Assembly (NCBI GenBank): GCA_902789505.1
Contig: CADAOO010000037.1
Coordinates: 1-40,949 of the forward strand
Length of the DNA stretch: 40,949 nucleotides
From: an uncultured Methanobrevibacter sp.
GTDB taxonomy: Archaea > Methanobacteriota > Methanobacteria > Methanobacteriales > Methanobacteriaceae
Direction of reading: 5' to 3'
Below, piece after piece: positions 8,033 to 28,377 of the stretch. Each line of letters starts with the position of its first letter. Within the stretch, counting starts at the first letter, position 1. The notes beneath the pieces were generated by a model, which was not told the DNA's origin, did not search any database, and worked only from the letters and a program-made list of their open reading frames with translations. A program made the position numbers and the translations under genes.

Positions 8033-9547
8033 ATGGTAGTTGGAATTTGTGTAGGTGAAACATCCCTTTCGGAAGTTACTTTTATTTCAGATAAAATGCC
8101 TAAAGTCGGTGAGTATGTCACAATTGAATATGGCGGTAAAAAAGTATTGGGAATGATTGAAAATTTGATAATGGGCAATGATGCCTTAAATGTGGACATC
8201 AATGATTTTAAAGCTATTCAAAAGATTTCCAGATTGGGTGTTGACGATAATTACATCAGGGGGAAGGTAAAAATCCTCGGTGACGTTAATGATAATCTGA
8301 AGCTGCCAAGAACCCCCGTTCTTCCGGGAACCGAAATTCATCTGGCCGACAAGGACACTTTAAACGAAATATTCGATGTTAAAAATCCCGTCAGATTGGG
8401 ATGTCTTGTTAATCAGAGTGATGTTGAGGTCAATGTTGAGGCAAACCCTATTCTATCAAGGCATTTGGCAATACTGGCAATGACCGGTGCCGGTAAATCC
8501 AATACAGTTTCTGTTTTAATAGATCAGTTGCTGGGATACAGTGTTCCTGTATTTGTATTTGATATGCATGGGGAATATGTCGGTGCAAGCTTCCCGAATG
8601 GTGATGTAAATGTCATCAAACCTAAAATCAATCCGAAATACATGGAATTTTATGAAATTAAAAAGCTGATTAACATTCCGAATAATGCAGTCATTCAGGA
8701 AAGGTACTTTAGAGAGGCATTCATTCACGCAAATGAAAAGCTCAGTGCAGGAACTGAAAAAACCATTGACTTTTTGGATTTGATGTATGATTATCTGGAG
8801 GACAAATCAGGATTGAATGATGAGGACGGAAAAATTGACAAGTCAGTTGTTGACGTAATGAATAAGATCAAAGATGCAAAGCTCAAGTATTCCAAGCTGT
8901 TTTATCAAAATGCTCCAAACATCATATCAAACATCAAGCACTCTCATGTCAATGTCCTGGATTTAAGTCAGGTTGATGAATATGTGGCTACAGTTCTTGT
9001 TAGCCATATTTTGAGGAATTCCCTTCAAAGAAGTAAGGATGCGGCTCACAGCGGAAACAAGGAAGAATTAATGGACAATTCAGTATTTTTCATTCTGGAG
9101 GAGGCACATATCCTGGCTCCTAAAAAACGTGATTCCGATTCAAAACGCTGGATTCAAAGAATTGCAAGGGAAGGCCGTAAATTCGGATTGGGTTTATGTC
9201 TGGTAAGCCAGTCCCCAAAAACCGTTGACCATGACGCTCTCTCCCAGATGAACAACATGATTATATTAAGGCTTGTTGAGCCGGAAGACCAGAGGCACGT
9301 GCAGTCAGCCAGTGAAAGCCTATCCCAGGATCTTGTCAATCAGCTGCCTTCCTTGAATGTGGGTGAAGCTATTGTGCTTGGTTTGATGAGCAAAGTACCT
9401 ACCCTTGTTAAGATTGATGAATTCAAGGGTCGTCTTCATGGGGATGATATGGACATCGTTTCCCATTTTGCAGATATCAAGCAAAAGGAAGAAGATGAAA
9501 TCAAGCGTCAGGAAGAGGAAAGTATGCAAATGGGTTATAATTATTAA
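8033..9547 (+). CDS. herA: HerA DNA translocase/bipolar helicase
   Basis: 504 residues, the usual HerA length. An N-terminal HAS-barrel (residues ~1-125) begins VVGICVGET and ends RLGCLV. The FtsK/VirB4-like ATPase follows with Walker A MTGAGKSNT (150-158), an FVFDMHGEYVG strand, Walker B VFFILEEAH (351-359), an arginine-finger region RIAREGRKFGLGLCLVSQSP, and a glutamine/lysine-rich C-terminal tail. HerA forms a hexameric ring that pumps DNA into the NurA dimer. The start at MVVGICVGE has a GAGGTC site. No damage seen; downstream lies a long noncoding gap. Confidence 0.95.
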   Translation: MVVGICVGETSLSEVTFISDKMPKVGEYVTIEYGGKKVLGMIENLIMGNDALNVDINDFKAIQKISRLGVDDNYIRGKVKILGDVNDNLKLPRTPVLPGTEIHLADKDTLNEIFDVKNPVRLGCLVNQSDVEVNVEANPILSRHLAILAMTGAGKSNTVSVLIDQLLGYSVPVFVFDMHGEYVGASFPNGDVNVIKPKINPKYMEFYEIKKLINIPNNAVIQERYFREAFIHANEKLSAGTEKTIDFLDLMYDYLEDKSGLNDEDGKIDKSVVDVMNKIKDAKLKYSKLFYQNAPNIISNIKHSHVNVLDLSQVDEYVATVLVSHILRNSLQRSKDAAHSGNKEELMDNSVFFILEEAHILAPKKRDSDSKRWIQRIAREGRKFGLGLCLVSQSPKTVDHDALSQMNNMIILRLVEPEDQRHVQSASESLSQDLVNQLPSLNVGEAIVLGLMSKVPTLVKIDEFKGRLHGDDMDIVSHFADIKQKEEDEIKRQEEESMQMGYNY

Positions 9548-9697
9548 CTCAGATATCGTTGTAAACACTCCTGCTGATAAAATATTGTTATAATGCATAT
9601 TGATGCAGATGTAAATTTGGTTTATAATTGAAAACATTGTGGAAGATTATTTGGTAGAAATAAATCTCGAATGGTTTCGCTTTTTATTAATTTTTTG

Positions 9698-9717
9698 TGC
9701 AGATTTTATCGTCTGCA
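9698..9717 (+). terminator. Possible distal terminator of nurA-herA
   Basis: TGCAGA (9698-9703) and TCTGCA (9712-9717) form a 6-bp stem with an 8-nt loop, followed by T-rich DNA. It lies about 150 bp after herA in a 345-bp noncoding gap. That gap otherwise holds only AT-rich sequence and the adhesin promoter. Confidence 0.35.
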
Positions 9718-9827
9718 TTTTACTTTCTATTTTTTATATGAATAAATTGTTGCTTTATGTATTTTCACATAAAATATATTCATATTTTTCTTATCTATAT
9801 AAATGATTTTCATAATTTAGAATTTTT

Positions 9828-9860
9828 TTTCAAAACAATTATATGCTATTTTAAACACAG
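9828..9860 (+). promoter_or_regulatory. Adhesin promoter with a shared BRE/TATA element
   Basis: TTTCAAAAC followed by an ATTATATGCTA TATA box and TTTAAACACA, about 35 nt before the gene. The same layout (TTTCAAAACTA, TATATAATAA, TTTAAACACA) stands at 21945-21976 before the second adhesin. The match between otherwise unrelated upstream regions supports a functional promoter. Confidence 0.6.
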
Positions 9861-9892
9861 ATAAATCTATAATATAAAATTAATAAACGGGA

Positions 9893-12800
9893 GTGGCAAT
9901 TTTGATAAACAAAAAATTCATGATTCTAGCAATATTTCTTGTTAGCCTGTTAGCTGTTTCGGCAGTAAGTGCCGCAGATAATGCCACAGAAGATATTGTT
10001 GGTGTAGAAGAAACAGCTGATGAAGTTGTAAGTGTAAATGAAAATCAGACAATCTTAAGTGAAAATAATGATGTCGGTACTTTTGATGATCTTCAAGGTG
10101 AGATAAATAATGCAGCAGAGGGTTCTGTTCTGAATCTGACAAGGGACTATAATGGAGCTCATGGTTCTAGAATCCAATTGAATAAAAATACTATAGACGG
10201 TCAGGGACATACCCTTGATTGTTTGGGTGATGACTGCAGTGCATTTTATTCAAATAGTGGAACCATAACATTGCAAAATATCAAAATAATTAACGGACAC
10301 AACGATTTTAATAATAAAGGAGGAGCCATTTATATAGAAGGTTCTGCCCAATACACAATTATAAACTGTACTTTCAACAATAATTGGGCCGATGACTACG
10401 GCGGAGCAATATACAATGGCGTAAATAAACCTTTAACCATTATAAATAGTAGTTTCAATAATAATAAAGCAGATGATGATGACGGTGGAGCAATATACTC
10501 CAAAGGAGAATTGGATATTATAAATTCCACATTCACATCAAACAATGCGAACGATGATGGTGGAGCAATTTATTGTGAAAAATCAGTATATCTTGAAAAT
10601 TGTTTATTTGAAAAAAATCATGCTAATGTTGATGGTGGTGCAATATATAGTAAAAGTAATGTCACTGTAACAAAAAATACCCGTTTTAACGCTAATGAGG
10701 CAAAGGGTGCAACTTCTGCTCAATGTTACGGCGGTGCCATACGAAGTGAAGGTCATGTTAAAGTTGATCATGCTACTTTTACTGAGAATATAGCTGCTGA
10801 TTCTGGTGGTGCAATTTATGCAAAAACTGTTTACATATTTCCAGCCACTTTTAAAAAAAATAAGGCAGAGGATAATGATGGTGGAGCAGTTTGCGCTGAG
10901 GGTTCTGTTTTTGTTAGGGATTCCTCCTTCGAAGGGGGACGTGCTTATAATTTTGGTGCTGCAATATATACTAAAGATACTATCCATGCAATAAATACCT
11001 ATTTTTGGGATAATAGAGCAGTGCATGGCACTGGTTCTAAGTCTTATGGTGGTGCTGTGCGATGTGAAGGTGACGGTATAATTGAATACTGTCGATTTTC
11101 TAGTAATTATGCATTTAGATATGGTGGGGCAATATACTGCGATGGAGATTTAGATATTAAAAACACTCTATTCAAATACAATGAGGCACACATGGGTGGT
11201 GGAGCAGTTTATTGTGAAAAATATGTATCTGTTGAAAATAGTGAGTTTATAGACAGTAAAGTTGAGGATTTTGGTGGTGCAATATATTGTGAAAAGGATG
11301 TCAGTGTAAAAAATACCAAATTTACAAATAATGAAGCAGATGATCACGGACCTGAGGGACAGGGACATAAAAATAAGGGTGGTGCTATACTAAGTGAAGG
11401 TGATGTTAAAATTGATGGGTGTACTTTTAATTATAATCATGCCCAATGTTATGGCGGTGCAATTTATGCAGACACTATAACCTGGGTGGATACACCTTCA
11501 TATTTCAAAGGCAATCATGTTTATTTGGATCATGGCGGTACAATATATGTAAATAAATTCACCACTGATGTAAAATATGGTGTTTTTATTGATGGTGATA
11601 TTATTGAAAAATCAAGAGATGGAGGGGCAATCTATATAAACAAGGAAAATCATATTACATTTTCCCAGTGTTATTTTGAACATAATCGCTGTACTGATGA
11701 AGGCGGAGCAATCTATTTGGATTCCACTTCCTCTACTTTGACTTTAGAGAATAATATTTTTATCAGCAATTGGGCAAAAGATAAAGGAAACATCGTATAC
11801 AATAAAGGTGAGTATACTAAAATTCACAATAACTGGTATGGAAGCAACTCTTTTGATTTTTCAAATGAACTTGTAGAATATAATGCTTGGGGAAGCGATA
11901 AAAGCCATCAGGATGATGAACAGGTCATTGTTGAATTATCTTTAGATGAAAATCCTCAGGCCGGTCAGCCATCCACATTAATTGTCAGATTCATATCCGA
12001 CGGAGAATTATTTAATTATGACGCAAAATTCAGTGCAGATAACGGGGCAATACTTACCAATCATAAAATTGGAAATAATACTGTTACTTCAGATATCACA
12101 TTCGATGACGGCATTACAACTGTAACCGCCACTGTCAATAAACAGGTTTTAAAATTATCATATTCCTATTCTAAACAAAACGTTACAATGGATATTAAAG
12201 CACCGGAAATTACTTTTGGTGATAATGCTGCCGTAAATGTTATTATAACACCAAATAATGCTACAGGCAAGGTCAGTATTGGAAATATTAATTCTCCTAT
12301 TGTAAATGGCGCTGCCACTCTTATTATTCCAGATTTATCTGCAGGCGATCATACTTTGCTCGTTAGTTATTCAGGTGACGGAGTATATAAGGCTAAACAG
12401 GAAAATGTGACCATTGCTGTTAATCGTAAAAACTTAAATGTCGATGCTAGTGCAAAACCAATAGTGAAAGGTGAGAATGCTACAGTTATTGTAACCGGTT
12501 TGGAACGTGCTACAGGCAATGTTACTGTTACAATTAACAATAATCATTGGACAGGCAAAATCAGCAATGGAACTGCCACCATTATTATTCCTGGATTAAA
12601 CGATAATACAACTGCAAATGTTACTTATATTGGTGATGCCAATTATACTAATGCTTCCACTGCAGCTTATATTATTGTTTATCCTATTAAGGTGAATTTA
12701 ACTATTAGTGCCAGTGTTGATCCTATTATGGCTAGTGAGGATGCTATTATTGTTGTTAGTGGTTTGGAAAATGCTACAGGAAGTGTCACTGTTACTATTG

Positions 12801-15800
12801 GCAGTGATGAGTGGTATGGTGAAATTAATAATGGTGTGGCCACTGTTACTGTTACAGGATTGAAGATGAATGCTACTGCGGATGTTTTTTATCCTGGTGA
12901 TTATTTGTATAATAATGCATCAACTACAGTTGATATCACTGTTACTCCGACAATTTATGTTTGGTATGTGAATGGAAGTAAAGAATCCAGCGGCAATGGA
13001 ATAACACCTGATACTGCATTTAAAACATTAAAAGAAGCATTAAAGAAAGCCCCTGAAAATAGTACCATTTATATTGCTCCGGGAACATACACAGGCAAAA
13101 ACAATACAAATTTAGCTGTCAATAAAAATTTGACATTCGCTAATTATGGTGTGGGTGAAGCAATCTTTGATGCACAGGGATTAAGTAGAATCTGGACTGT
13201 TAATGCAGGAAGAATAAATATCACAGGCTTGACATTTAAGAATGGAAAACAAGAATCTGTCTGCGGTGCGATTTTCTTTAGTCAGACACTTAATGACTCA
13301 TGTATAAATGCCATTTTTATAAATAATAATGCGGATGAGGGTCTTGCCGGTGCAATCGGATTTTATGCAGATGTTATCAACACCAACATAAATTCCATTT
13401 TTATAAATAACAGTGTAAATACTGGTTATGGTGGTGCGATTTTCTTTAATGGGAATCTAAACAATGTAAATATATCCGGTAATTACACAGCCAACACAGC
13501 AGGCGATTACGGTGGTGCAATTCTCTTTTATGGTGATTTAAACAATGTAGATATATCTGGAAATTATACTGCCAACTCAGCAGCCGACGGCGGTGCAATT
13601 TTCTTTAATGGAAATTTAGCTGATGTTAATATAAGCGGATATTATAACAATAACCAGGCAAATGACACTGCAGGCGTATTCCTATTTAATAGCAATTTGA
13701 CTAATGTTGTCATATCCGGAGATTACAGCAATAATGCCGCCCAATATTGTGCGGTATACTATATGAGCGAGTCTGCAACCGTAAATGATTCCAGCATATC
13801 CGGGGATTACTATAATAACTCTGCAAATTATTGTGTTGTACTTTTAATGGAAGGAATAATAAGTAATTCCAACATATCCGGAAACTACACCAATAACCAT
13901 GCGGAAATGGGCATTAACATTATCGGGAAAGCATATAATGTTGACATGTCTGGAAGTTATGTGAATAATGATATTGTTAATGGCAGTGTGATTTATATTA
14001 TGCATTGTAATGAAAATTCCGTTATTCATGACTCTGTTTTCATAAACAATACAATGGACGATAACTTGATTATTGATGTGGAATCCGGTTCTGTTTCATC
14101 TGTCAATAACTGGTTTGGAAATAATGCCACCAATTACAATATAAGACCAAATGTCAGTGAAAATGTAACTATGGTCAACTGGCTATTTTTAAACGCAACA
14201 ACAAACACTACAGATGAAATGAAAATAAATGAAACAGCTGAAATTGCCTTTAAATTATACTCATATGATAATGTTTCACAAGAAATTAAGGAGTATGATG
14301 CATCAAAAATGAACATACAATTGGATTTATCACCATTACATGGTACATTAAATCAGCCAACTGCTTTTATCAATGAAACAATATTATTCAAGTGTATGGA
14401 AGTAGGGCTTGCGAGTGTAACCGGTCAATTTGAAACTGCTTCATACACCATTATTTTAACTAGAATATCCACTGAGATTATTGTTAATAAAACAGAAATA
14501 ACATTAAATGTTAGTGAATCTGTTTCTGCCGGTGCAGCTTTAAATCCTCCTGAAGCAGGTAATTTAACTTATACTTCAACCAATACAAGTGTTGCTGTTG
14601 TTGAAAATGGCATTATCAAAGGTTTGAAAGAAGGTACTGCCATCATTACTGTTAGTTTTGCAGGTGATGAGAGATATGCTCCTGCTGTAAGTAACATTAC
14701 TGTTGATGTTGTAAAAAGAACTCCGGTCATCATTGCTAGTGCTGATGTTATTGAGAACAGAGTCATCATTCGTGTGGATATCGACGAATATGACGGGGTG
14801 ATTTCACTGAACAGCATTTACCTCAAAATCAACTCATCAATATCTTTTGTAGAGATTTTGGATCCTGGAAGTTATAGCATTAACATAACTGCATGGGGCA
14901 ATGATTTGTTCTATCCTGGTTCAGAAATATTGAATTTCACTGTCCCTGAGCCTGAAAAACTCAACACTTCCATTTCAGCACAGCCAAGCGTAGATGGAAA
15001 CAGTGTCACAATCACCGTTGACGTTGATTTGAATGCTACCGGTTTTGTTGAGATTGCCATTGCAGGCAACAAGTATTACATCCCAGTGGATGCAGGTAAG
15101 GCAGTATTCACCAATGAGTTTTATTCCGGAACTTACAGTGCTGATATAACTTATCTGGGTGACAATAAATATAATCCTGCAAATACAACTGCCCAATTCA
15201 GTGTAATTGACCAGAACGATACTTTGAAAAACACTTCAATCAAGATAAACGTTGTTACAGGTGAAAATTATGCAATGTTTACCGTTGATGTTAATGAAAG
15301 CGCTACAGGATTGGTTGAAATCAACATTGACGGCGAAGCAGTCTATCTTGCAGTCAAAAACGGCCAGGTCACATATGAAGCGGTGATGCCTGGCGGAGAC
15401 TATACTGTGACTGCAACTTACCTTGGTGATGACAGATTCAATGGAAACAGCACAACATCTGAATTCACTGTCAAAGACCATGAGAAAATAAACACTACAA
15501 TCGCAACTTCAGTCAGTGTAGCCAACAGCACAGTGACCCTTACTGTCAATGTTAATGAGAATGCAACTGGCTTTGTTGAAATAAGTGTTGCAGGCAAGAA
15601 ATATTATGTTCCTGTTGATGCGGGCAAGGCTGTATTCAGCAATGACTATGCTGCAGGAACTTACGGTGCCGATATAACTTATCTTGGTGATGATAACTTC
15701 AATGCAGCAGTTGATTCCGCTTCATTTACTGTAATTGAGCATAATGAAACTAAAATGAATACTGCAATTGATGTTGAGGTGGATAGTGTTGAAAATAATG

Positions 15801-16399
15801 TGACAATTACAGTTAATGTTAATGAGAATGCTACTGGTCTTGTGGAATTCAACATTGATGGTGAAGCTGTTTATCTTCCTGTAAACAATGGTGTGGCAGT
15901 GTGTGGATTAGTATTGTCTGGAGGGGATTATACTGTGACTGCAACTTACATGGGTGATTCTGATTCAAAGTTCAATTCCAACTCAACATCCCGTGAATTC
16001 ACTGTCAAGGGCCATGAGAAAGTCAACACTACTATTGCAACTTCTGTTGGTGTGGTCAACAGTACAGTGACCCTTACTGTCAATGTTAATGAGAATGCTA
16101 CTGGCTTTGTTGAAATAAGTGTTGCAGGCAAGAAGTATTATGTTCCTGTTGATGCGGGCAAGGCTGTATTCTCCAATGACTATGCTGCAGGAACTTACGG
16201 TGCGGATATAACTTATCTTGGTGATGATAACTTCAATGCAGCAGTTGATTCCGCTTCATTTACTGTAATCGAGCATAATGTGACCAAAAAGGACACTCCA
16301 ATTGACATTAGTGTTGACAGTATTGAAAATAATGTGACAATAACTGTCAATGTTGATTCTGACGCCACAGGATGTGACCAAAAAGGACACTCCAATTGA
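9893..16399 (+). CDS. Giant adhesin-like surface protein, N-terminal part (frame broken by duplication)
   Basis: 2168 codons until a frameshift stop; the natural product continues in the frame ending at 20615. After a signal peptide (INKKFMILAIFLVSLLAVSA-type), residues ~139-655 hold about 18 GGAIY-like repeats of a Pmp-type parallel beta-helix. Then come Ig-like domains (~765-1020), a second beta-helix (~1021-1410) opening with the VWYVNGS and PDTAFKTLKEA pattern, a Big_2-like domain (~1520-1610), and the start of an alternating Ig array. It is exported and probably wall-associated. The conventional start is GTG at 9893, but TTG at 9902 fits better: GGGAGTGG is then at ribosome-binding-site spacing, and the second adhesin has the same TTGATAAACAAAAAATTC. 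The last ~14 residues (after ATG in DSDATG) are out-of-frame products of a 94-bp duplication. Confidence 0.85.
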   Translation: MAILINKKFMILAIFLVSLLAVSAVSAADNATEDIVGVEETADEVVSVNENQTILSENNDVGTFDDLQGEINNAAEGSVLNLTRDYNGAHGSRIQLNKNTIDGQGHTLDCLGDDCSAFYSNSGTITLQNIKIINGHNDFNNKGGAIYIEGSAQYTIINCTFNNNWADDYGGAIYNGVNKPLTIINSSFNNNKADDDDGGAIYSKGELDIINSTFTSNNANDDGGAIYCEKSVYLENCLFEKNHANVDGGAIYSKSNVTVTKNTRFNANEAKGATSAQCYGGAIRSEGHVKVDHATFTENIAADSGGAIYAKTVYIFPATFKKNKAEDNDGGAVCAEGSVFVRDSSFEGGRAYNFGAAIYTKDTIHAINTYFWDNRAVHGTGSKSYGGAVRCEGDGIIEYCRFSSNYAFRYGGAIYCDGDLDIKNTLFKYNEAHMGGGAVYCEKYVSVENSEFIDSKVEDFGGAIYCEKDVSVKNTKFTNNEADDHGPEGQGHKNKGGAILSEGDVKIDGCTFNYNHAQCYGGAIYADTITWVDTPSYFKGNHVYLDHGGTIYVNKFTTDVKYGVFIDGDIIEKSRDGGAIYINKENHITFSQCYFEHNRCTDEGGAIYLDSTSSTLTLENNIFISNWAKDKGNIVYNKGEYTKIHNNWYGSNSFDFSNELVEYNAWGSDKSHQDDEQVIVELSLDENPQAGQPSTLIVRFISDGELFNYDAKFSADNGAILTNHKIGNNTVTSDITFDDGITTVTATVNKQVLKLSYSYSKQNVTMDIKAPEITFGDNAAVNVIITPNNATGKVSIGNINSPIVNGAATLIIPDLSAGDHTLLVSYSGDGVYKAKQENVTIAVNRKNLNVDASAKPIVKGENATVIVTGLERATGNVTVTINNNHWTGKISNGTATIIIPGLNDNTTANVTYIGDANYTNASTAAYIIVYPIKVNLTISASVDPIMASEDAIIVVSGLENATGSVTVTIGSDEWYGEINNGVATVTVTGLKMNATADVFYPGDYLYNNASTTVDITVTPTIYVWYVNGSKESSGNGITPDTAFKTLKEALKKAPENSTIYIAPGTYTGKNNTNLAVNKNLTFANYGVGEAIFDAQGLSRIWTVNAGRINITGLTFKNGKQESVCGAIFFSQTLNDSCINAIFINNNADEGLAGAIGFYADVINTNINSIFINNSVNTGYGGAIFFNGNLNNVNISGNYTANTAGDYGGAILFYGDLNNVDISGNYTANSAADGGAIFFNGNLADVNISGYYNNNQANDTAGVFLFNSNLTNVVISGDYSNNAAQYCAVYYMSESATVNDSSISGDYYNNSANYCVVLLMEGIISNSNISGNYTNNHAEMGINIIGKAYNVDMSGSYVNNDIVNGSVIYIMHCNENSVIHDSVFINNTMDDNLIIDVESGSVSSVNNWFGNNATNYNIRPNVSENVTMVNWLFLNATTNTTDEMKINETAEIAFKLYSYDNVSQEIKEYDASKMNIQLDLSPLHGTLNQPTAFINETILFKCMEVGLASVTGQFETASYTIILTRISTEIIVNKTEITLNVSESVSAGAALNPPEAGNLTYTSTNTSVAVVENGIIKGLKEGTAIITVSFAGDERYAPAVSNITVDVVKRTPVIIASADVIENRVIIRVDIDEYDGVISLNSIYLKINSSISFVEILDPGSYSINITAWGNDLFYPGSEILNFTVPEPEKLNTSISAQPSVDGNSVTITVDVDLNATGFVEIAIAGNKYYIPVDAGKAVFTNEFYSGTYSADITYLGDNKYNPANTTAQFSVIDQNDTLKNTSIKINVVTGENYAMFTVDVNESATGLVEINIDGEAVYLAVKNGQVTYEAVMPGGDYTVTATYLGDDRFNGNSTTSEFTVKDHEKINTTIATSVSVANSTVTLTVNVNENATGFVEISVAGKKYYVPVDAGKAVFSNDYAAGTYGADITYLGDDNFNAAVDSASFTVIEHNETKMNTAIDVEVDSVENNVTITVNVNENATGLVEFNIDGEAVYLPVNNGVAVCGLVLSGGDYTVTATYMGDSDSKFNSNSTSREFTVKGHEKVNTTIATSVGVVNSTVTLTVNVNENATGFVEISVAGKKYYVPVDAGKAVFSNDYAAGTYGADITYLGDDNFNAAVDSASFTVIEHNVTKKDTPIDISVDSIENNVTITVNVDSDATGCDQKGHSN

Positions 16400-16465
16400 C
16401 ATTAGTGTTGACAGTATTGAAAATAATGTGACAATAACTGTCAATGTTGATTCTGACGCCACAGG
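16278..16465 (+). repeat. Exact 94-bp tandem duplication that frameshifts the giant adhesin
   Basis: Positions 16278-16371 and 16372-16465 are identical over all 94 bases; the first flanking bases on both sides differ. Since 94 is not a multiple of three, the frame shifts and a stop appears at 16397-16399. Deleting one copy joins 9893 to 20615 in one open frame (10,629 nt, 3543 codons with the stop). The junction shows no shared bases. Confidence 0.95.
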
Positions 16466-19400
16466 TCTTGTTGAAATAAGCATTGGTGATGAAGCAATTT
16501 ATCTTCCTGTAAACAACGGAAAAGTCACAGGTGAATTCATGATATCTGGCGGCGATTATGAAGTCACTGCAACTTACCTGGGAGACAATAATTTCAACGC
16601 AAACACAACATCCGCAGAATTCACAGTCAAAGATCATGAAAAGATAAACACTACCATTTCAGCAGAGGCTGCTGTTGATGAAAGCGCAGTAACAATTACC
16701 ATCAATGTAAATGATGGCGCTACCGGCTTTGTTGAAATAAGTGTTGCAGGCAAGAAGTATTATGTTCCTGTAGATGGTGGAAAGGCCACATTTGTAGATG
16801 ACTATCTTCCGGGCACTTATGCTGCTGAGATAACATATCTTGGTGATGACGACTTCAATCCGGCTAAGGCTTCAGCCTCATTTACCGTAATCGAACATAA
16901 CGAAACAAAAATGAACACTCCAATCAGTGTTGAAGTTGCAAGTGTTGAGAATAACGTGACCGTTACAGTCAATGTTAATGAAAATGCCACAGGCCTTATA
17001 GAGATTAACATTGATGGTGAGGCCATCTATCTTCCTGTAAACAATGGAATGGCTTCATGTGGATTTGTATTGCCTGGCGGCGATTATATGGTTACAGCCA
17101 CTTATCTTGGTGATGCCAAATTCAACGCAAACACAACATCCACTGAATTCACAGTCAAAAACCATGAAAAGGTCAACACAACTATCAAAGCACAGGCCAC
17201 TGTGGATGGAAGTGCCGTAACAATTGCAGTTGACATAAATGAGAATGCAACAGGCTTTGTTGAAATAAGTGTTGCAGGCAAGAAGTATTACGCCCCTGTA
17301 AACGAAGGCAAGGCAATATTCGCCAATGACTACCTTCCGGGCACTTATGGTGTCGACATAACCTACATGGGTGATGACAACTTCAATCCTGCCAAGACCT
17401 CAGCCTCATTTACCGTAATAGAGCATAACATAACTAAAAAGGACACTCCAATCGATATTGACGTTTCAAGCGTTGAAAATAACGTTACAATAACAGTCAG
17501 CGTTAATCCTAACGCCACTGGACTTGTTGAGATTAACGTTGATGGCGAGTCAGTATATCTTCCTTTAAGCAATGGTGTTGCAGCATGTGGGATTGTATTG
17601 CCTGCAGGAATGCATGAGGTCAGTGCAACCTATCTTGGTGATGCCAAATTCAACGCAAACACAATATCCACTAAATTCACTGTCAAGGGCCATGAGAAGG
17701 CCAACACTACAATTGCAGCCGCTGTCAGTGTGGACAACAATACAGTCACACTCACAGTCACTGTAAATAATGAGGCTACCGGTTTTGTTGAGATAAGCGT
17801 TGCAGGCAAGAAGTATTATGTTCCAGTTGAAAAAGGCAAAGCCACATTCGTCGATGACTACATGCCTGGAACTTACGCTGCTGAGATAACCTACATGGGT
17901 GATGACAACTTCAATCCTGCCAAGACTTCAGCTTCATTTACTGTAATCGAGCATAACGTGACCAAAAAGGACACTCCAATTGATATCGATGTTTCAACTG
18001 TTGAAAATAATGTGACCATTGCAGTCAGCGTTGATTCTAACGCTACCGGTCTTGTTGAAATAAGCATTGGTGATGAAGCAATTTATCTTCCTGTAAACAA
18101 CGGAAAAGTCACAGGTGAATTCCTGCTTCCTGGCGGCGATTATGCTGTGACTGCAACTTATCTGGGAGACAATAATTTCAATGCAAACACAACATCTGTC
18201 GAATTCACAGTAAAAGACCATGAAAAAGTTGATCCTTCAATCAAATCTCAGGCCGCTGTGGACGGCAATACCGTAACAATTACAGTCAATGTAAATGATA
18301 ATGCAACAGGATTTGTTGAAATAAGCATTGCAGGCAAGAAATACTATGTTCCTGTTGATGTTGGCAAGGCAGTATTCAGCAACGACTATAATGCAGGAAC
18401 TTACAGCGCAGATATAACATACCTTGGTGATGACAACTACAACACAGCCGAGGATTCCACTTCATTTACTGTAATCGAGCATAACGTAACCAAAAAGGAC
18501 ACTCCAATAGATATTGCTGTTGACAGTGTTGAGAATAATGTGACAATAACTGTAAACATCGACCCTAACGCTACAGGTCTTGTTGAAATCAGCATCGGCG
18601 ATGAAAGCATTTACCTTCCTGTAAATAATGGTGTGGCTATAGGCGAATTCCTGCTTCCTGGCGGCGATTATGAGGTTGTTGCCACTTATCTTGGTGATGA
18701 CAAATACAATACAAACACAACATCCGCTGAATTCACAGTAAAAGACCATGAAAAGGTTGATTCTTCAATCAAATCTCAGGCTGCTGTGGACGGCAATACA
18801 GTAACAATTGCAGTCAATGTAAATGAGGACGCTACAGGCTTTGTTGAAATATCCATTGCTGGCAAGAAATACTATGTTCCTGTCGATGCAGGCAATGCCA
18901 AACTGGTAATTGACTATCTTCCGGGCACTTATGGTGTCGATATAACCTACATGGGTGATGACAACTACAACACAGCCAAAACTTCCACTTCATTTACTGT
19001 AATCGAGCATAACGTAACCAAAAAGGACACTCTAATAGATATTGCTGTTGACAGTGTTGAGAATAATGTGACAATAACTGTCACTGTTGATGCAAACGCT
19101 ACAGGCCTTGTTGAAATCAGCATAGGTGATGAGGCAGTTTACATTCCTGTAAACAATGGAGCAGCCATTGGAGAATTTTTACTGCCTGGTGGTGATTATG
19201 AAGTAACTGCAACTTATCTTGGTGACAACAAGTTCAATGGAAATGCAACATCTGCCGAATTCACTGTTGAAGGTCATGTGAAGGTTAACACAACAATATC
19301 CGCCAGAGTAATTTCAATCGAAAACACAGCATTCATAACGGTCAATGTCAATGAAAATGCCACTGGCTTTGTTGAATTGACAATTGGCTCAACCACTGCC

Positions 19401-20615
19401 TATGTGAAAGTGGAAGATGGTGTGGCAAGATATAATGATGTATTGCCTGCCGGAAACTACAGCTTCAAAGCTACCTACATGGGTGACGAAAACTTCAATG
19501 AAAACACAACAGAAGGCACATTCAGAGTTTCCGGTCACTTGAAGAGACCTTCAAATATTGACGCTTCTGTAAGCGTTGACGGGGACAATGTATCTATTGA
19601 CATTTCCGTTCCTGGTGCTACCGGCTACGTTACACTGGACTGGGGTGAAAATCTCATACATGTCCCATTGGAAAACGGATCTGCAGTGTTCGAAGATGAA
19701 TTTGCACCTGGAAGTTATGAAGTGGATATAGTCTATTCCGGTGATGATAATTACCTGCCGTCAGATAAGACAGTAAACTTCACCATAGGCAAAATATCTA
19801 CCCATTTAGAGACCAAATATGAAAACGGCACAATCTATGCCACAGTTACAGATGCACAAGGCAATCCTGTAAGTGGACTTAAGGTTGGCTTTGCTGTAAA
19901 CGGCGTGAAATACGTGACAACTGATGAAAATGGTCAGGCAAATTATTCACTCGGCGATCTGGCACCAGGCACTTACAACATTAAGGTAATGGCTTACGGC
20001 AATGACATATATGAAAATTCCAATCAGGAAACAGTCGTTGTAACCAAAGAGCAGTCCAAAATCTATCTGCGTAACGCATTGTACTTTGTTACAGACACCA
20101 AGATTGTAAAAGTTACCCTATGGGGCGGCAAAAACAAACCTATTGCCGGAAAAACAGTTCACATTAAGGTATATGATTCACTATATTCTGGTGTGACTGA
20201 TAAGGATGGTAATGCATACATTAGGGTAGGTATCGGATTTGGTGTGCACAATGCTACTGTCATTTTTGACGGCGACTATCAGTATGCCTCATCCAATAGA
20301 ACAGGTCAGATAAAGGTTATCAGGGAGACTCCTTCCATTATGGTTCGTGGTGCTGATCAGAAGTTCAAGGTCAGTGATAATCCTAAGACTGTTAAGGTAT
20401 ACTTGTGGGATAGAAACAGCAAGCCGCTTCCTGTTGGCTCAAAAGTTGCAATTAAGATAAACGGCCAAACATATGTCGGACTTACTGATAGCAATGGTAT
20501 TGCAAGCATTAATATCAATGTTAATTCTGTTGGCGTTTATAATGCTGAGCTTAAGTATGCCGGTAACAGTGCATATAATGCAGTAACAAGGGACGTCAAA
20601 ATTAGAATTGTATAG
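16350..20615 (+). CDS. Giant adhesin-like surface protein, C-terminal part (downstream of frameshift)
   Basis: The true continuation enters this frame at about 16374 (VTKKDTPID); the first eight codons are read from the duplicated DNA out of frame and there is no signal peptide or good ribosome-binding site, so this piece is unlikely to be made alone. It holds alternating Ig-like modules of ~90 residues. Type A has ATGFVEISVAGKKYYVPV and ends FTVIEHN; type B has ATGLVEI.IGDEA.YLPVNNG and ends FTVK.HEK. Two divergent modules follow, then a ~260-residue C-terminal region in three domains (starting at KISTHLETKYE, KIYLRNALYF and ETPSIMVRGA) ending TRDVKIRIV. That region recurs in the other two adhesins here and is a candidate wall-binding unit. 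There is no C-terminal membrane segment or sortase motif. Confidence 0.85.
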   Translation: MLILTPQDVTKKDTPIDISVDSIENNVTITVNVDSDATGLVEISIGDEAIYLPVNNGKVTGEFMISGGDYEVTATYLGDNNFNANTTSAEFTVKDHEKINTTISAEAAVDESAVTITINVNDGATGFVEISVAGKKYYVPVDGGKATFVDDYLPGTYAAEITYLGDDDFNPAKASASFTVIEHNETKMNTPISVEVASVENNVTVTVNVNENATGLIEINIDGEAIYLPVNNGMASCGFVLPGGDYMVTATYLGDAKFNANTTSTEFTVKNHEKVNTTIKAQATVDGSAVTIAVDINENATGFVEISVAGKKYYAPVNEGKAIFANDYLPGTYGVDITYMGDDNFNPAKTSASFTVIEHNITKKDTPIDIDVSSVENNVTITVSVNPNATGLVEINVDGESVYLPLSNGVAACGIVLPAGMHEVSATYLGDAKFNANTISTKFTVKGHEKANTTIAAAVSVDNNTVTLTVTVNNEATGFVEISVAGKKYYVPVEKGKATFVDDYMPGTYAAEITYMGDDNFNPAKTSASFTVIEHNVTKKDTPIDIDVSTVENNVTIAVSVDSNATGLVEISIGDEAIYLPVNNGKVTGEFLLPGGDYAVTATYLGDNNFNANTTSVEFTVKDHEKVDPSIKSQAAVDGNTVTITVNVNDNATGFVEISIAGKKYYVPVDVGKAVFSNDYNAGTYSADITYLGDDNYNTAEDSTSFTVIEHNVTKKDTPIDIAVDSVENNVTITVNIDPNATGLVEISIGDESIYLPVNNGVAIGEFLLPGGDYEVVATYLGDDKYNTNTTSAEFTVKDHEKVDSSIKSQAAVDGNTVTIAVNVNEDATGFVEISIAGKKYYVPVDAGNAKLVIDYLPGTYGVDITYMGDDNYNTAKTSTSFTVIEHNVTKKDTLIDIAVDSVENNVTITVTVDANATGLVEISIGDEAVYIPVNNGAAIGEFLLPGGDYEVTATYLGDNKFNGNATSAEFTVEGHVKVNTTISARVISIENTAFITVNVNENATGFVELTIGSTTAYVKVEDGVARYNDVLPAGNYSFKATYMGDENFNENTTEGTFRVSGHLKRPSNIDASVSVDGDNVSIDISVPGATGYVTLDWGENLIHVPLENGSAVFEDEFAPGSYEVDIVYSGDDNYLPSDKTVNFTIGKISTHLETKYENGTIYATVTDAQGNPVSGLKVGFAVNGVKYVTTDENGQANYSLGDLAPGTYNIKVMAYGNDIYENSNQETVVVTKEQSKIYLRNALYFVTDTKIVKVTLWGGKNKPIAGKTVHIKVYDSLYSGVTDKDGNAYIRVGIGFGVHNATVIFDGDYQYASSNRTGQIKVIRETPSIMVRGADQKFKVSDNPKTVKVYLWDRNSKPLPVGSKVAIKINGQTYVGLTDSNGIASININVNSVGVYNAELKYAGNSAYNAVTRDVKIRIV

Positions 20616-20642
20616 AGATTATTTAATCTCTACTTTTTTTAT
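20613..20642 (+). terminator. Adhesin terminator containing the stop codon
   Basis: TAGAGATT (20613-20620) and AATCTCTA (20625-20632) form a perfect 8-bp stem with an ATTT loop, then C and T7. The first TAG is the stop codon. The same stem ends the other two adhesin genes. Confidence 0.8.
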
Positions 20643-20644
20643 TT

Positions 20645-20801
20645 TTTGATACTATTTTTCATGTCAAATACTTGATTTGGGCATAGATTATTATGTTATT
20701 TCTATCTTTTTGTGCATTTATTTGATACTATTTTTCATGTCAAATACTTGATTTGGGCATAGATTATTATGTTATTTCTATCTTTTTGTGCATTTATTTG
20801 A
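20645..20801 (+). repeat. Two tandem copies of a 76-bp noncoding unit
   Basis: The unit starting TTTGATACTATTTTTCATGT at 20645 repeats exactly at 20721, with the 5-base flank TTTGA repeated a third time at 20797. Only one copy of the unit is present in the paralogous noncoding region after 26071. The shared TTTGA suggests slippage or recombination at short homology. Confidence 0.9.
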
Positions 20802-20803
20802 AT

Positions 20804-20905
20804 CAGTTTTTCAATATTTGTAATGAGGTATTGACGAGGCAAATTTTGTAGTTTCGTGTGGATGTAGGAATTGTTATATACATATTTAACACATATTAAA
20901 TTAAT
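20804..20905 (+). promoter_or_regulatory. Conserved upstream region and promoter of a small membrane protein
   Basis: From TTTTTCAATATTTGTAATGAGG to the GTTATATACATATTTAACACATATTAAATTA block, this DNA is nearly identical to 26153-26254, apart from a few base changes and a short indel. The TATA-like GTTATATACATATTTAA (about 20873-20890) stands 45-60 nt before both downstream genes and is the likely promoter. Confidence 0.55.
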
Positions 20906-20932
20906 ATTAATATTTATTTTTTGGGTTATTTG

Positions 20933-21529
20933 ATGGATAAAAATAAATTGATTATGTGTGCTTTAATTGTTATTATTTTAGCTTTTTTAGTTGGAATATT
21001 CTTATCAATGCCTAATTTTTCAAAGGCCGATTCAAAACTTGAAATAATTGGCAATGATACAATTACAGAAGGTAGCAATATTCAGATTAAATTAACCGAT
21101 AATAATGGGACTGCATTAATTAATCAAACTGTGAAAATAACATTTACTAATAAAGACAACTCCAATTCAGATTATTCAGTTGTTACAAATGAAGAAGGTG
21201 TTGGAGAATTAAAATTAGACAAAAATGCTGGAGAATATGATGTAACAGTTATTTATAATGGAAACGATAATTACATGGGATGCAATGCAACTAAAAAAAT
21301 AAATATTGAAAAAGAAGTTGCTGAAGCTGAACCGGCTCAAAATCAAGCAGGTAGTCAAAGTAACACCCATATAGTTATGGGAGAAGATGGATATTATTTT
21401 ATTGTTGATGATAATGGGAATATCTTACAAAATTTAGGTCCAAGTAAGAAATATTATCCTAATAATCCAAATAGTGTTGATTATCCTAATGCAGAACCTT
21501 CTAGCAAATATATTGATAAAAGCAAATAA
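20933..21529 (+). CDS. Single-span membrane protein with an external Ig-like domain
   Basis: 198 residues from ATG. A TTG 12 nt upstream is in frame, but the ATG gives MDKNKLIMCALIV, matching MEKNKIIVIALLV of the paralogue starting at 26285. A membrane segment (residues ~6-26) is followed by KADSKLE and a Big-type Ig-like domain (residues ~35-120) with VKITFTN, NEEGVGELKL and YDVTVIYNGNDNY, close in style to the Ig modules of the neighbouring adhesins. The last ~70 residues are polar, with tyrosine- and proline-rich ends. It is probably anchored in the membrane facing the wall. Function unknown; position directly behind an adhesin is repeated at the third adhesin. Confidence 0.65.
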   Translation: MDKNKLIMCALIVIILAFLVGIFLSMPNFSKADSKLEIIGNDTITEGSNIQIKLTDNNGTALINQTVKITFTNKDNSNSDYSVVTNEEGVGELKLDKNAGEYDVTVIYNGNDNYMGCNATKKINIEKEVAEAEPAQNQAGSQSNTHIVMGEDGYYFIVDDNGNILQNLGPSKKYYPNNPNSVDYPNAEPSSKYIDKSK

Positions 21530-21539
21530 TATTTTTTAA

Positions 21540-21576
21540 GTAGGTGCAACTTCACCTACAACTTCTTTTTATTTTA
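21540..21576 (+). terminator. Terminator after the 198-aa membrane protein
   Basis: GTAGGTG (21540-21546) and CACCTAC (21553-21559) form a perfect 7-bp stem with a CAACTT loop, then T-rich sequence. Confidence 0.7.
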
Positions 21577-21735
21577 ATTCAGGCATAGACCATTTGGCCG
21601 CTTCAAAACTTCCTGATTAATTTCGACCTTTATTATTTAAATCATTGATAGATTTGCTAATAGTGGCAAAGCATATTATGTGTTACATATTTTTGATAAT
21701 TGTTTACCTCAAGTGCTAATATATTAAATATTTAA

Positions 21736-21826
21736 TTTTACATATATTATAATTGTAGTTCGTATTAGAGTGAAATATGGATTACGCATTAGCTTAGGAC
21801 CATCTTAGGTGGTTCTACTTTTTTAA
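21736..21826 (+). ncRNA. Possible very short transcription unit (promoter, micro-ORF, terminator)
   Basis: In a 475-bp gap, a TATA-like TTTTACATATATTATAA is followed about 25-60 nt later by ATGGATTACGCATTAGCTTAG (six codons, MDYALA). Next is a stem TAGGACCA (21795-21802) / TGGTTCTA (21810-21817) with one G-U pair, then C and T6. The stop codon overlaps the stem exactly as in the adhesin terminators. It may be a small RNA, or the remnant 3' end of a lost adhesin-type gene. No RNA family is recognised. The rest of the gap shows only AT-rich DNA and the next promoter. Confidence 0.25.
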
Positions 21827-21944
21827 ACAATAATAATTGCAAATGTTTTCGAATGATTACACTATTGGAAGACTATTTATTTCTAAATCAAATTTTATTC
21901 ATACTTTCTTTATTTTTGTACATAATATTCAGTTTTTACATTTA

Positions 21945-21976
21945 TTTCAAAACTAATATATAATAATTTAAACACA
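21945..21976 (+). promoter_or_regulatory. Promoter of the second adhesin
   Basis: TTTCAAAACTA, then the TATATAATAA TATA box and TTTAAACACA. The layout and much of the sequence match the element before the first adhesin (9828-9860). Confidence 0.6.
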
Positions 21977-22004
21977 ATATATATATATCATTAGATAAGT
22001 TTAA

Positions 22005-22343
22005 ATGGGGGTAAAATTTTTGATAAACAAAAAATTCATGATTCTTGCAATATTTCTTGTAAGCTTATTGGCTGTCTCGGCCGTTAATGCGGCAGATAAT
22101 ATTACAAGTGATATTGTAAGCATAAATGAAACTGACGAAGTTATTAGTATTGAAAATAATGAAGAGTGTATACTTGAGGCGTACCCAGGGACATTTACAG
22201 ATTTGGCCAATAGGATAACTCATACGAACAATCAATTGAATTTGGATAGAAATTATGTTTATAACGAAAAAACAGATTCTACTTATAGATATGGGATAGA
22301 TATTACAAAAAAATTAAAATTAATGGGAATGGCTACACAATAA
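22005..22343 (+). pseudogene. Second adhesin-like protein, N-terminal fragment (frameshifted)
   Basis: Encodes a signal peptide nearly identical to that of the giant adhesin (INKKFMILAIFLVSLLAVSAV) and an N-terminal region ending ITKKLKLMGMATQ. In the next frame the expected family sequence INGNGYTINGNNKAVAFAVYS follows without a gap, so one base is missing, most simply from the A7 run at 22307-22313 or the A4 run at 22316-22319. The in-frame ATG at 22005 overlaps the GGGGG stretch, so TTG at 22020 (same as TTG 9902 in the paralogue) is the more likely start. Either a decayed gene, a phase-variable OFF state, or a sequencing error. Confidence 0.8.
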
Positions 22344-22360
22344 ACGGAAATAATAAAGCA

Positions 22361-24394
22361 GTGGCGTTTGCTGTTTATTCACTTGGAGTTGTTATAAATA
22401 ATATTAATTTTAAAAACTGTAATTATGGCACTATTTATTGGTATAGTGAAAAAGGCACATTATCTGATTGTAGTTTTTTAGACTGCACTTCAACTTATGA
22501 TGGTAGTGCAGTATTTTGGAGAGGTGATGATGGTATTTTATCAGGATGTAGTTTTGTGAATTGTACTGTTTTTGGCCACCATAATAAAAATTCTGAAGCA
22601 TATGAACCCAGTCGTGGCGGTGCAGTATACTGGAACAACAATAATGGTGCTTTAAATAATTGCATTTTTAAAAATTGTTATGGGGATGAAGGTGGCGCTG
22701 TTTTTTGGCAGGGTGAATTTGGCGGTTTGAGTAAATGTACTTTTATTGATTGTTCCGCAGAGTATGATGGTGCAGTTTCTTGGAATGCAATTTACGGTAG
22801 CATTGACCATTTTACTTTCATAAATTGCCATGCAAAATATTCCAGTGGTGCTGTAGGTTGGACAAGTGCCGAAGGCTTTTTAACTGCTTGTAACTTTTTG
22901 AATTGTCATGCTACTTATGGTGGTGTTATTCATTGTACTGGAGATTATGTTAATATTTTTGAATCTAATTTTACAAATTGTTCTGCCGAGTATGGTGGTG
23001 CCATTATCTGGCCAGGTTATTATGGTTCAATTGAAGGATCTATTTTTATAAATTGTTCTTCTAGTAATGAAGGGGGTGCAATTTGGTGGTCAGGGTATAA
23101 AGGTTGGGTTGAAGAATCTAGTTTTATTAACTGTAACTCTAAAAATTACGGAGGTGGAATTTACTTTGATGCTGATGATTGCTGGTTGATTAATCCAATT
23201 TTTGAAAATTGTTTTGCAAAAGAGGGTTCAAATTGGTATAGTAAAGAACCAATTGCATTTATTAATCAATCTAATACATTTATTAAAGCCCATGATGTAA
23301 CCACTACCTATGGCAATAAAGGATATGTGGTCGCAACCCTAAAATACATTGATGATAAACCTTTAGCTAATAAGAAAATTTACATTGAATCTAATGACTT
23401 ATGGGGTTCAGCAACAACCAACTCCAAAGGTGAAGCTTATTTTAATATTCCAAATAATTTGACTCCAAAAACTTACATTGTTACTATATATTATATAGGT
23501 ACTGGTAATTATTTTTCATCAAGCACTACCGCAAAAATTACTGTCAATAAAGCCAACACAACATTAACTACCAGATATGAGGTGAGAAGCAAAAACATAG
23601 TTGCCACAGTAAAGGATGAAAACGGCAATCCTGCAAGGGGTGTTAAAGTCGGGTTTGCGCTTAATGGTGTTAAGTATATGATTACTGATGCCAATGGTCA
23701 GGCAAAATATTCCACTGCCGATTTAGCGAATGGTACATATAAAGTGACTGTCAAGGCCTATGGGAATGAAATATACAAGGACTCCAACAAGAAAACAGTA
23801 TCCTTCAATATTGGAAGCAAGGAACAGGCAAAAATCTATCTGCGCAATGCACTGTACTTTGTCCTGCAGACAAAAATCGTTACAGTTACCCTATGGGACA
23901 GCCATAACAATCCTATTGCAAATAAGACCGTCTACATCAATCTTGACGAATACGGATCAAAATATTCCGGCGTGACTGACGAAAACGGCAATGCATACAT
24001 CAGAGTGGGCATAGGGTTCGGAAATCACTCGGCCACAGTAAGCTTTGAAGGCGATACCCAATACAATGCAGCCAGTAAGACAGGAAAAGTCAGAGTGATT
24101 AAGGAAACACCTTCACTAATGCTTCCGGGAGCATACACCAAATTCAAAGCCACAGATTCAACAAAAACAATCAAGGTATACCTAAAGGACAGATACAACA
24201 AACCTCTCCTTCCGGAAACAAAAGTATTTGTCACCATAAACGGCATACTATACGTCGGACTAATCAATACCGAAGGCATTGCAAGCATCAACATAATCCT
24301 CAACAAGGCAGGCGTTTATGATGTTGACCTTTACTATACTGGAAACACCGCATACAATGAGGTTAGAAAATCAACAAAAATTACAATAGTTTAG
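22361..24394 (+). CDS. Second adhesin-like protein, main part (downstream of frameshift)
   Basis: 677 codons continuing the fragment above; it has no signal peptide of its own. Residues ~1-310 are beta-helix-like repeats built on NC-F-NC / GGA(V/I)-W patterns (for example GGAVYW, GGAIIWPG, GGAIWWSG), with many cysteines spaced one per turn, unlike the first adhesin's GGAIY type. Ig-like domains follow, then the shared three-domain C-terminal region: TTLTTRYEVRSKN, KIYLRNALYFV with IRVGIGFGNHSATV, and ETPSLMLPGA, ending STKITIV. Codon use changes inside the gene: AT-rich up to about 23,560, then C-ending codons dominate. This suggests the C-terminal block was swapped in. Confidence 0.8.
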   Translation: MAFAVYSLGVVINNINFKNCNYGTIYWYSEKGTLSDCSFLDCTSTYDGSAVFWRGDDGILSGCSFVNCTVFGHHNKNSEAYEPSRGGAVYWNNNNGALNNCIFKNCYGDEGGAVFWQGEFGGLSKCTFIDCSAEYDGAVSWNAIYGSIDHFTFINCHAKYSSGAVGWTSAEGFLTACNFLNCHATYGGVIHCTGDYVNIFESNFTNCSAEYGGAIIWPGYYGSIEGSIFINCSSSNEGGAIWWSGYKGWVEESSFINCNSKNYGGGIYFDADDCWLINPIFENCFAKEGSNWYSKEPIAFINQSNTFIKAHDVTTTYGNKGYVVATLKYIDDKPLANKKIYIESNDLWGSATTNSKGEAYFNIPNNLTPKTYIVTIYYIGTGNYFSSSTTAKITVNKANTTLTTRYEVRSKNIVATVKDENGNPARGVKVGFALNGVKYMITDANGQAKYSTADLANGTYKVTVKAYGNEIYKDSNKKTVSFNIGSKEQAKIYLRNALYFVLQTKIVTVTLWDSHNNPIANKTVYINLDEYGSKYSGVTDENGNAYIRVGIGFGNHSATVSFEGDTQYNAASKTGKVRVIKETPSLMLPGAYTKFKATDSTKTIKVYLKDRYNKPLLPETKVFVTINGILYVGLINTEGIASINIILNKAGVYDVDLYYTGNTAYNEVRKSTKITIV

Positions 24395-24429
24395 AGATTT
24401 GAACAATCTCTACCATTTCTTCTTTTTTT
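24392..24429 (+). terminator. Adhesin terminator containing the stop codon
   Basis: TAGAGATT (24392-24399) and AATCTCTA (24405-24412), loop TGAAC, followed by T-rich sequence. TAG is the stop codon; stem identical to those at 20613 and 26041. Confidence 0.75.
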
Positions 24430-24573
24430 GCCAAAAGCCAGATTCAATGCCAAAAAATATAATCTGACCAACCATTATAATAATTTCCCCCAAACATTTA
24501 TAGGTTGTGATAGCGAACATTGCCTTAACGGCTCCAATCCCCATTATACAATGCCCAGCACCCCAGAACCATT

Positions 24574-24591
24574 TCAAAAGATATAAATATA
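24574..24591 (+). promoter_or_regulatory. Promoter of the third adhesin-like protein
   Basis: TTCAAAAGATATAAATATAC gives an AAAAG BRE-like element and a good TATA box about 50-60 nt before the start. TTTCAAAA is shared with the other two adhesin promoters. Confidence 0.55.
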
Positions 24592-24636
24592 CAGGCAAAG
24601 AAATCTAGTATTATAGACTTAAGGGAGAAAAAAACA

Positions 24637-26043
24637 ATGAAATTCAAACTGATTTTAGTGGCATTGCTGCTCGCATTCCTGCTTGCGGTTTCAGCATCAG
24701 CAGTAAGCGCAGCGGACGATGCCGCCTTAGAAAGCATATCGGACGATGATGCAATCGCAACCGACAACAGCGAAGTGCTGCGTGATGAACAATTAGGCGC
24801 AGGACCGAATAAAGACGTATGGATAGACAACACCGTAGACGAAAGCAAGATATATGTCGAAGGACATATGGAAGTCTGGGACCACAAAAATATTAACCCT
24901 GTGCTGCTTATAGGAATGTCAGGTTCCAGAAACACCACATACTCCGACAACAATACAACATCCATTGAAAGCCAGGTAATGGAAAAGTATCTGGACATTG
25001 CTAAAAAGGCGACCGGTGCCAGTGACATTGAAATCATAAAAATGGACAGGTACGTTTCATCCGAAATGTGGGACCACAGAATATATGAGACTATTGATGA
25101 CAATAGTACAGGGAGAGCCACACACATAGCTTCAGGCTCCTATGCCAAAATCACAACCGTCCACCTCAACGTGATTACAGAGTACAACAGAGAGGACCAG
25201 AAACTGATTGAAACCAAACTGACCGCAAAATACGATGCCGCCAGCAAAAACATTGTTGCAACCGTAAAGGATGCTGAGGGCAAACCCGTTAGCGGACTTA
25301 AGGTAGGATTTGCAATAAACGGTGTGAAATATGAAACAACAGACGCCAACGGCGAGGCAAAATACTCTACTGCAGGTCTGGCGGACGGCACATATAAGGT
25401 GACCGTACAGGCTTACGGAAACGAAATATACAATAATTCCAACAAGGAAACAGTTACATTTACTATCGGAAGTAAAGAAAAGTCCAAGATCTTCTTGCGT
25501 AACGCTCTTTACTTTGTTACCCAAGTTAAAATGGTTCAAGTTACCTTGTGGGATGGCAACAATCAGCCACTTGCAAATAAAACAGTTTCTATCAGAGCAT
25601 ACGATTCAGTATGGCATGGTGTAACTGATGAGAACGGTGATGCTTTTGTCAGAGTTGGTATCGGTTTCGGTACACATGATGCTACAGTCAGCTTTGACGG
25701 GGATGATGATTACAATTCATCCACCCGAGCAGGTTATATTAGAGTAATCAAACAAACTCCTTCTGTAATGGTACGTGGCGCTGACACCATGTTTAAAGCG
25801 ACAAATCCAGTCAAAATTGTTAAAGTCCATTTAAGGGACAGATATGACCAACCACTTCCAGAAGGATCAAAAATTGTTCTCAAATTAAACGGTAAGACCT
25901 ACATCGGATTTACTGATGCTGAGGGCGTTGCCCGCATTGCAATCAACATCAACACTGTGGGCACATTCACTGCTCAGGCGATGTACGGTGGAAACAGTGC
26001 ATACAATCCCGTAACAAGGGACGTCAAAATCAGAATTGTATAG
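24637..26043 (+). CDS. Short adhesin-like secreted protein with the shared C-terminal module
   Basis: 468 residues with a GGAGA ribosome-binding site. Signal peptide KFKLILVALLLAFLLAVSA ends near AVSAAD. Residues ~30-195 are an acidic unrecognised domain (VWIDNTVDESKIYVEGH, then NPVLLIGMSGSR, MEKYLDIAKKATG); there is no beta-helix. Residues ~200-468 are the three-domain region shared with both other adhesins: TKLTAKYDAASKN (Big_1-like), KIFLRNALYFVTQ with VRVGIGFGTHDATV, and QTPSVMVRGA ending TRDVKIRIV. No membrane anchor. Codon style shifts near 25,470 from C-ending to T-ending codons, which suggests mosaic origin. Intact, unlike the other two. Confidence 0.75.
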   Translation: MKFKLILVALLLAFLLAVSASAVSAADDAALESISDDDAIATDNSEVLRDEQLGAGPNKDVWIDNTVDESKIYVEGHMEVWDHKNINPVLLIGMSGSRNTTYSDNNTTSIESQVMEKYLDIAKKATGASDIEIIKMDRYVSSEMWDHRIYETIDDNSTGRATHIASGSYAKITTVHLNVITEYNREDQKLIETKLTAKYDAASKNIVATVKDAEGKPVSGLKVGFAINGVKYETTDANGEAKYSTAGLADGTYKVTVQAYGNEIYNNSNKETVTFTIGSKEKSKIFLRNALYFVTQVKMVQVTLWDGNNQPLANKTVSIRAYDSVWHGVTDENGDAFVRVGIGFGTHDATVSFDGDDDYNSSTRAGYIRVIKQTPSVMVRGADTMFKATNPVKIVKVHLRDRYDQPLPEGSKIVLKLNGKTYIGFTDAEGVARIAININTVGTFTAQAMYGGNSAYNPVTRDVKIRIV

Positions 26044-26071
26044 AGATTTATTATAATCTCTACTTTTTTTA
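26041..26071 (+). terminator. Adhesin terminator containing the stop codon
   Basis: TAGAGATT (26041-26048) and AATCTCTA (26055-26062), loop TATTAT, then C and T7. TAG is the stop codon. Confidence 0.8.
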
Positions 26072-26254
26072 TTTTTTGATACTATTTTTCATGTCAAATA
26101 CTTGATTTGGGCATAGATTATTATGTTATTTCTATCTTTTTGTGCATTTATTATTTTTCAATATTTGTAATGAGGTATTTGTTGACGAGGCAAATTTTCT
26201 AGTTTCGTGTGGATGTCGGAATTGTTATATACATATTTAACACATATTAAATTA
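26063..26254 (+). repeat. Second copy of the duplicated adhesin-downstream noncoding block
   Basis: Nearly identical to 20633-20905, but with a single 76-bp unit and a short deletion/insertion before TTTTTCAATATTTG. It includes the promoter block GTTATATACATATTTAACACATATTAAATTA used by the next gene. Confidence 0.85.
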
Positions 26255-26284
26255 TATTATGTAATTATTTGGGGGAGTATAAAC

Positions 26285-26740: not shown

Positions 26741-26755
26741 GGATTTAATAGGTGA

Positions 26756-26788
26756 ATATGGAAAGGAATAAAATTAAACTTTCCATAT
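26756..26788 (+). terminator. Perfect 10-bp hairpin after the 151-aa protein
   Basis: ATATGGAAAG and CTTTCCATAT around a 13-nt loop, 16 nt after the stop. It has no strong T-tract, so it may be a 3'-UTR structure rather than a terminator. Confidence 0.45.
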
Positions 26789-26916
26789 ATAACTCCTACA
26801 TCAGATGACAGGTTAAAATTATTAATCCATCATTTTTTCAAATCAAATGCATTTTAAAAATATTTATATATTTTTTTCCAACAATATATTAACAATTGAT
26901 TTTTGGAGAAAGGGAA

Positions 26917-28225: not shown

Positions 28226-28243
28226 ATTAAAAAAGGTAATATA

Positions 28244-28363: not shown

Positions 28364-28377
28364 CTTTCCAAAAAGGA

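Follow-up and report, generated by a model that had tools for sequence, protein, structure and literature searches.

An exact 94-bp tandem repeat divides an otherwise intact adhesin-like gene in the window, the whole stretch of DNA analysed here, which is contig C37 of a draft assembly (40,949 bp). It is highly probable that this repeat is an artefact of short-read (metagenome) assembly, an overlap of two contigs that was not collapsed. Its length of 94 bp does not exceed the 99-nt overlap of contig ends in the draft, the copies are exact and blunt, and further faults of the join type, themselves presumed errors, are found in the same contig. Among the three readings offered by the earlier note, a reversible switch, a recent mutation, or an uncollapsed contig overlap, the third was therefore best supported, and the switch gained no positive evidence.

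The repeat and the gene divided by it

The gene, its two parts, and the repeat have the following positions:

9893-20615, + strand: whole gene, Methanobrevibacter adhesin-like, split into frames of 2168 and 1421 codons by the 94-bp repeat
9893-16399, + strand: 5' part of the gene, ORF of 2168 aa, with a TGA stop within copy 2
16278-16371, + strand: copy 1 of the 94-bp exact tandem repeat
16372-16465, + strand: copy 2 of the 94-bp exact tandem repeat, frame shifted by +1
16350-20615, + strand: 3' part of the gene, ORF of 1421 aa

Tandem Repeats Finder reported 16278-16465 with a period of 94, 2.0 copies, and 100% matches. Direct comparison of the copies gave an identity run of exactly 94, with blunt edges and 0 extra matching bases on either side. 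The duplication without a shared junction base that had been described from the letters alone is thus present in the deposited sequence; an origin of such an exact pair by chance (about 0.25^94) is impossible. The unit is not a multiple of three (94 mod 3 = 1) and lies inside a surface-related reading frame. Two further claims were borne out: removal of one copy restores the frame, since 10,723 - 94 = 10,629 nt is divisible by three and corresponds to 3543 codons including the stop, and the gene is otherwise open on both sides, with ORFs of 2168 and 1421 aa. The starts of successive homologous Ig-repeat segments around the site are 267, 361, and 261 nt apart. Since 361 equals 267 + 94, an extra 94 bp is an economical description of the site.

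The 5' part consists, in this order, of a signal-peptide-like start (recognized by eye), right-handed beta-helix/PMP-like repeats, and Ig-like (Big_3_5) repeats, with Pfam matches to Big_3_5 (4.7e-58), Chlam_PMP (2e-37), and Beta_helix (5e-15). In the 3' part, Big_3_5 (3.3e-133) was matched in 15 stretches, corresponding to about 15 Ig-like domains. Adhesin-like proteins of Methanobrevibacter are large surface proteins built of beta-helix and Ig-like repeats and encoded in many copies per genome, and the split gene is like them in domains, size, and signal-peptide-like start. By its predicted signal peptide, beta-helix/PMP, and Ig-like repeats it is assigned to this group, as a candidate surface adhesin. 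Whereas complete relatives encode adhesin-like proteins of up to 8264 aa in single unbroken frames, the gene described here is split by the 94-bp copy.

The overlap of the 5' and 3' frames at 16350-16396 would be compatible with two separate genes, or with one protein produced via ribosomal frameshifting in copy 2. However, a signal peptide was looked for in the 1421-aa frame 16350-20615 and is absent, and no ribosome-binding site is evident in the 30 nt (GTATTGAAAATAATGTGACAATAACTGTCA) preceding ATG 16350, which falls inside copy 1. The second in-frame start with its own signal peptide, which according to the earlier note would have made two genes, was accordingly not found. Frameshifting would have to be +1, and the A5 run in copy 2 does not appear to be a classical +1 site, while the spacing of the Ig repeats indicates 94 inserted bp. 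The probability of both readings is virtually negligible, and they were ruled out on the sequence.

Word size and scaffolding of the draft assembly

The draft comprises 1.89 Mb in 109 contigs and is 84% complete. All relatives of its HerA that were found belong to Methanobrevibacter metagenome genomes, the closest being 91-92% identical, and the draft contains pseudomurein genes. These findings make it very probable that the draft was assembled from a metagenome and belongs to the Methanobrevibacter group; the archaeon would be a methane producer of the gut or rumen. Two of its contigs, C7 and C4, have a G+C content of 0.25-0.27 over their first 20 kb, versus about 0.35 elsewhere, and these stretches are possibly foreign or mis-binned.

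Comparison of 73 contig ends revealed an overlap of exactly 99 nt in four pairs and a common 99-nt prefix in a fifth. Overlaps of exactly this length indicate graph words of k about 99-100; a 99-nt end overlap is expected for a maximal K of 99 (metaSPAdes, MEGAHIT) or 100 (IDBA_UD) (PMC10914622), and the draft, derived from a probable metagenome, conforms to this rule in its k-length contig-end overlaps. The same source advises that contigs be preferred to scaffolds for IDBA_UD, as a precaution against scaffolding errors. Runs of 23 and 7 Ns elsewhere in the draft indicate that scaffolding took place, and suggest that estimated gap sizes were written. For short-read metagenome assemblies, duplicate flanks at scaffold joins, wrong repeat numbers in repeat regions, and local errors have been described, the local errors being suspected to be prominent in IDBA-UD assemblies (PMC7111523). 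The 94-bp site is similar in having duplicate sequence at a putative join and an apparently wrong repeat number in a repeat region. The published duplicate flanks have Ns between them, whereas the 94-bp site has none, and the assembler of the draft is unnamed.

With graph words of about 99-100 nt, the repeat could have been formed as follows. Neighbouring reads would have overlapped by only 94 nt, which is shorter than a graph node, and one contig would have ended at 16371 and the next begun at 16372; given an end overlap of exactly 99 nt, an overlap of 94 nt is too short to be merged by the graph. The scaffolder would then have used read pairs to link the two contigs, estimated a gap of zero or below, and placed the ends side by side with the shared 94 nt uncollapsed. 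This would produce a blunt-edged, exact tandem copy that shifts the frame by +1. No second copy of the 99-mer 16273-16371 was detected in the genome, and no exact dispersed repeat explains a contig break at this position, so that a coverage hole has to be assumed.

Other anomalies in the same contig

Two further sites of the contig are suspected joins:

20624-20722, + strand: exact 99-bp dispersed repeat X, identical to 26054-26152; the longest exact repeat of the contig, equal in length to the end overlap
26054-26152, + strand: other copy of X, downstream of the Big_3_5 gene 24637-26043
20645-20801, + strand: 76-bp exact tandem repeat (run 81), second suspected join
28244-29418, + strand: mre11, frame-broken at 28328-28329, third suspected join

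X is the sole dispersed exact repeat in the contig that reaches 99 bp, and its copies are located 3' of two adhesin genes. The 76-bp tandem repeat, 4.4 kb from the 94-bp repeat and free of Ns, is composed of X[1-99] followed by X[24-99], the latter being the final 76 nt of X. Across 1.03 Mb of this genome, no exact tandem repeats of at least 60 bp were detected beyond these two, and both (94 and 76 bp) are shorter than the 99-nt end overlap. The 76-bp structure is suspected to have arisen from two contigs ending in X that were joined with 23 nt trimmed instead of 99; alternatively, it could be a real duplication with 5 bp of microhomology.

In mre11, about 67 nt are missing without Ns, comprising residues 29-51 and with them the GDLF motif, which aligned relatives keep. 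Residues 1-28 are encoded up to 28327, and residue 52 onward follows in another frame from 28330. No other copy of 28244-29418 was found in the genome. The other conserved genes of the contig that were checked against four relatives are intact. For a conserved repair gene situated in this very contig, a partial loss is easier to ascribe to a blind join than to mutation. The break is thus a probable join error, or else a real loss of Mre11. The blind joining proposed for the 94-bp site would account both for the 76-bp repeat at 20645 and for the 67 nt lost at 28328.

It is extremely unlikely that all of these anomalies are real, in which case Mre11 would be lost by deletion of GDLF, break repair would be impaired, and blunt tandem duplications would switch adhesins off. 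If true, surface variation in this archaeal lineage would be driven by a mutator state and would possibly be reversible.

The HerA-Mre11 interval and relatives

The earlier note had proposed to compare the same locus in related genomes. This comparison was performed, but at this position the relatives lack the entire cluster that separates HerA from Mre11, and no single-copy orthologue of the split gene was available for alignment. DNA searches in 60 relatives, and in a further 66 genomes from the genus, yielded distant Ig-repeat matches only, none of them close to the segment. A scan of genome contigs with the adhesin and a pattern scan of viral contigs gave no match, and Rfam predicted 0 RNAs in the window.

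The interval between HerA and Mre11 measures about 0.3-0.5 kb in 15 of 19 relatives and 1.0-1.4 kb, with various small genes, in the other four. In one further contig (L151), HerA is followed by an adhesin-like gene. In the window, the interval (9547-28244) is about 18.5 kb long and filled mostly with adhesin-type genes. It appears to be a variable cargo site, the outer boundaries of which may also be unreliable here, given the faults of the contig. At two loci, L139 and L144, HerA is followed by two small adjacent genes which by eye resemble a HEPN/nucleotidyltransferase-type pair.

Close exact repeats in the draft and in complete relatives

Pairs of exact direct repeats, 30 bp or longer and within 1.2 kb of each other, were collected from 1.07 Mb of the draft and from 395 kb of adhesin-rich stretches in four single-contig relatives. 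In the draft, the spacing is a multiple of three in 46 of 58 pairs, and the other 12 are off-frame. The four complete relatives have 185 of 186 close exact pairs at multiple-of-three spacing, the sole exception being located outside any long frame. For 12/58 versus 1/186, Fisher's test gave p of about 1e-7, and about 1e-4 if only six coding loci are counted; pairs within one gene are not independent, and the samples differ, since the stretches of the relatives were picked at adhesin genes and those of the draft only in part. The longest exact runs also differ, not exceeding 100 bp in the draft versus up to 319 bp in the complete relatives.

Off-frame repeats are found at broken adhesin frames in draft contigs C7 (3381/424 aa), C12 (437/219), and C11 (639/189), and in all three the similarity of the copies ends abruptly where the exact run ends. 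In contig C84, an off-frame repeat coincides with a frame end. Sampling of 13 other drafts revealed several off-frame pairs at broken frames in G025, a few in G016 and G019, and none in ten. The exact-repeat ceiling of G025 is likewise 100 bp. One adhesin gene of G025 (L166, G025:C33, 2720-13062) shows the same fault pattern: it is broken into frames of 1253, 810, 335, 385, and 715 aa, and several of the breaks fall on exact repeats that are off-frame, among them a repeat of 99 bp.

These data also bear on the possibility that the 94-bp repeat is a real, recent, unselected tandem duplication which inactivates the adhesin gene in the sampled lineage. A recent event would be expected to leave identical copies and two otherwise open halves, as is the case here. 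Against an artefact, it has to be considered that a real 94-bp tandem repeat, with a run below 99, forms a linear path at k=99-100 and would also be assembled correctly. Nevertheless, a real duplication is unlikely: the edges are blunt and lack microhomology, the sole other long exact tandem repeat in 1.03 Mb is situated only 4.4 kb away on a k-length repeat, and frame breaks linked to repeats are seen repeatedly in this draft and in G025, which has the same ceiling, but not in complete relatives. A real duplication explains the exactness and the open flanks only. An assembly artefact accounts for both of these and also for a unit shorter than 99 bp with blunt edges, for its clustering with two further faults, and for the pattern across the genome.

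Very unlikely is a reversible on/off switch, in which duplication and loss of a random tandem unit would phase-vary a surface adhesin, even though the unit is not a multiple of three and lies in a surface protein that has homologous repeats. Spontaneous, reversible duplication of sequence has a precedent in pneumococcal capsule genes (PMC4243769, citing Waite 2001 and 2003). Phase variation of pneumococcal cap3A, cap8E, and tts by random tandem duplication is similar in that an exact tandem duplication breaks an ORF; for the capsule genes, however, reversion and phenotype were reported in culture, whereas here a single consensus of an archaeal adhesin-like gene is at hand, and no second allele was seen. 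Moreover, the lone off-frame pair among the 186 in adhesin regions of the complete relatives does not affect a long frame, and the neighbouring suspect sites are intergenic in one case and within mre11 in the other, neither of which is predicted by a surface-protein switch.

Implications

The 94-bp repeat, most likely an assembly artefact, probably means nothing as biology. It calls for caution, since giant, repeat-rich adhesin genes in short-read drafts break at repeats of about k length and thereby mimic phase variation. A control that can be applied without reads, the off-frame fraction of close repeats in a draft versus complete relatives, helps to separate such artefacts from phase variation.
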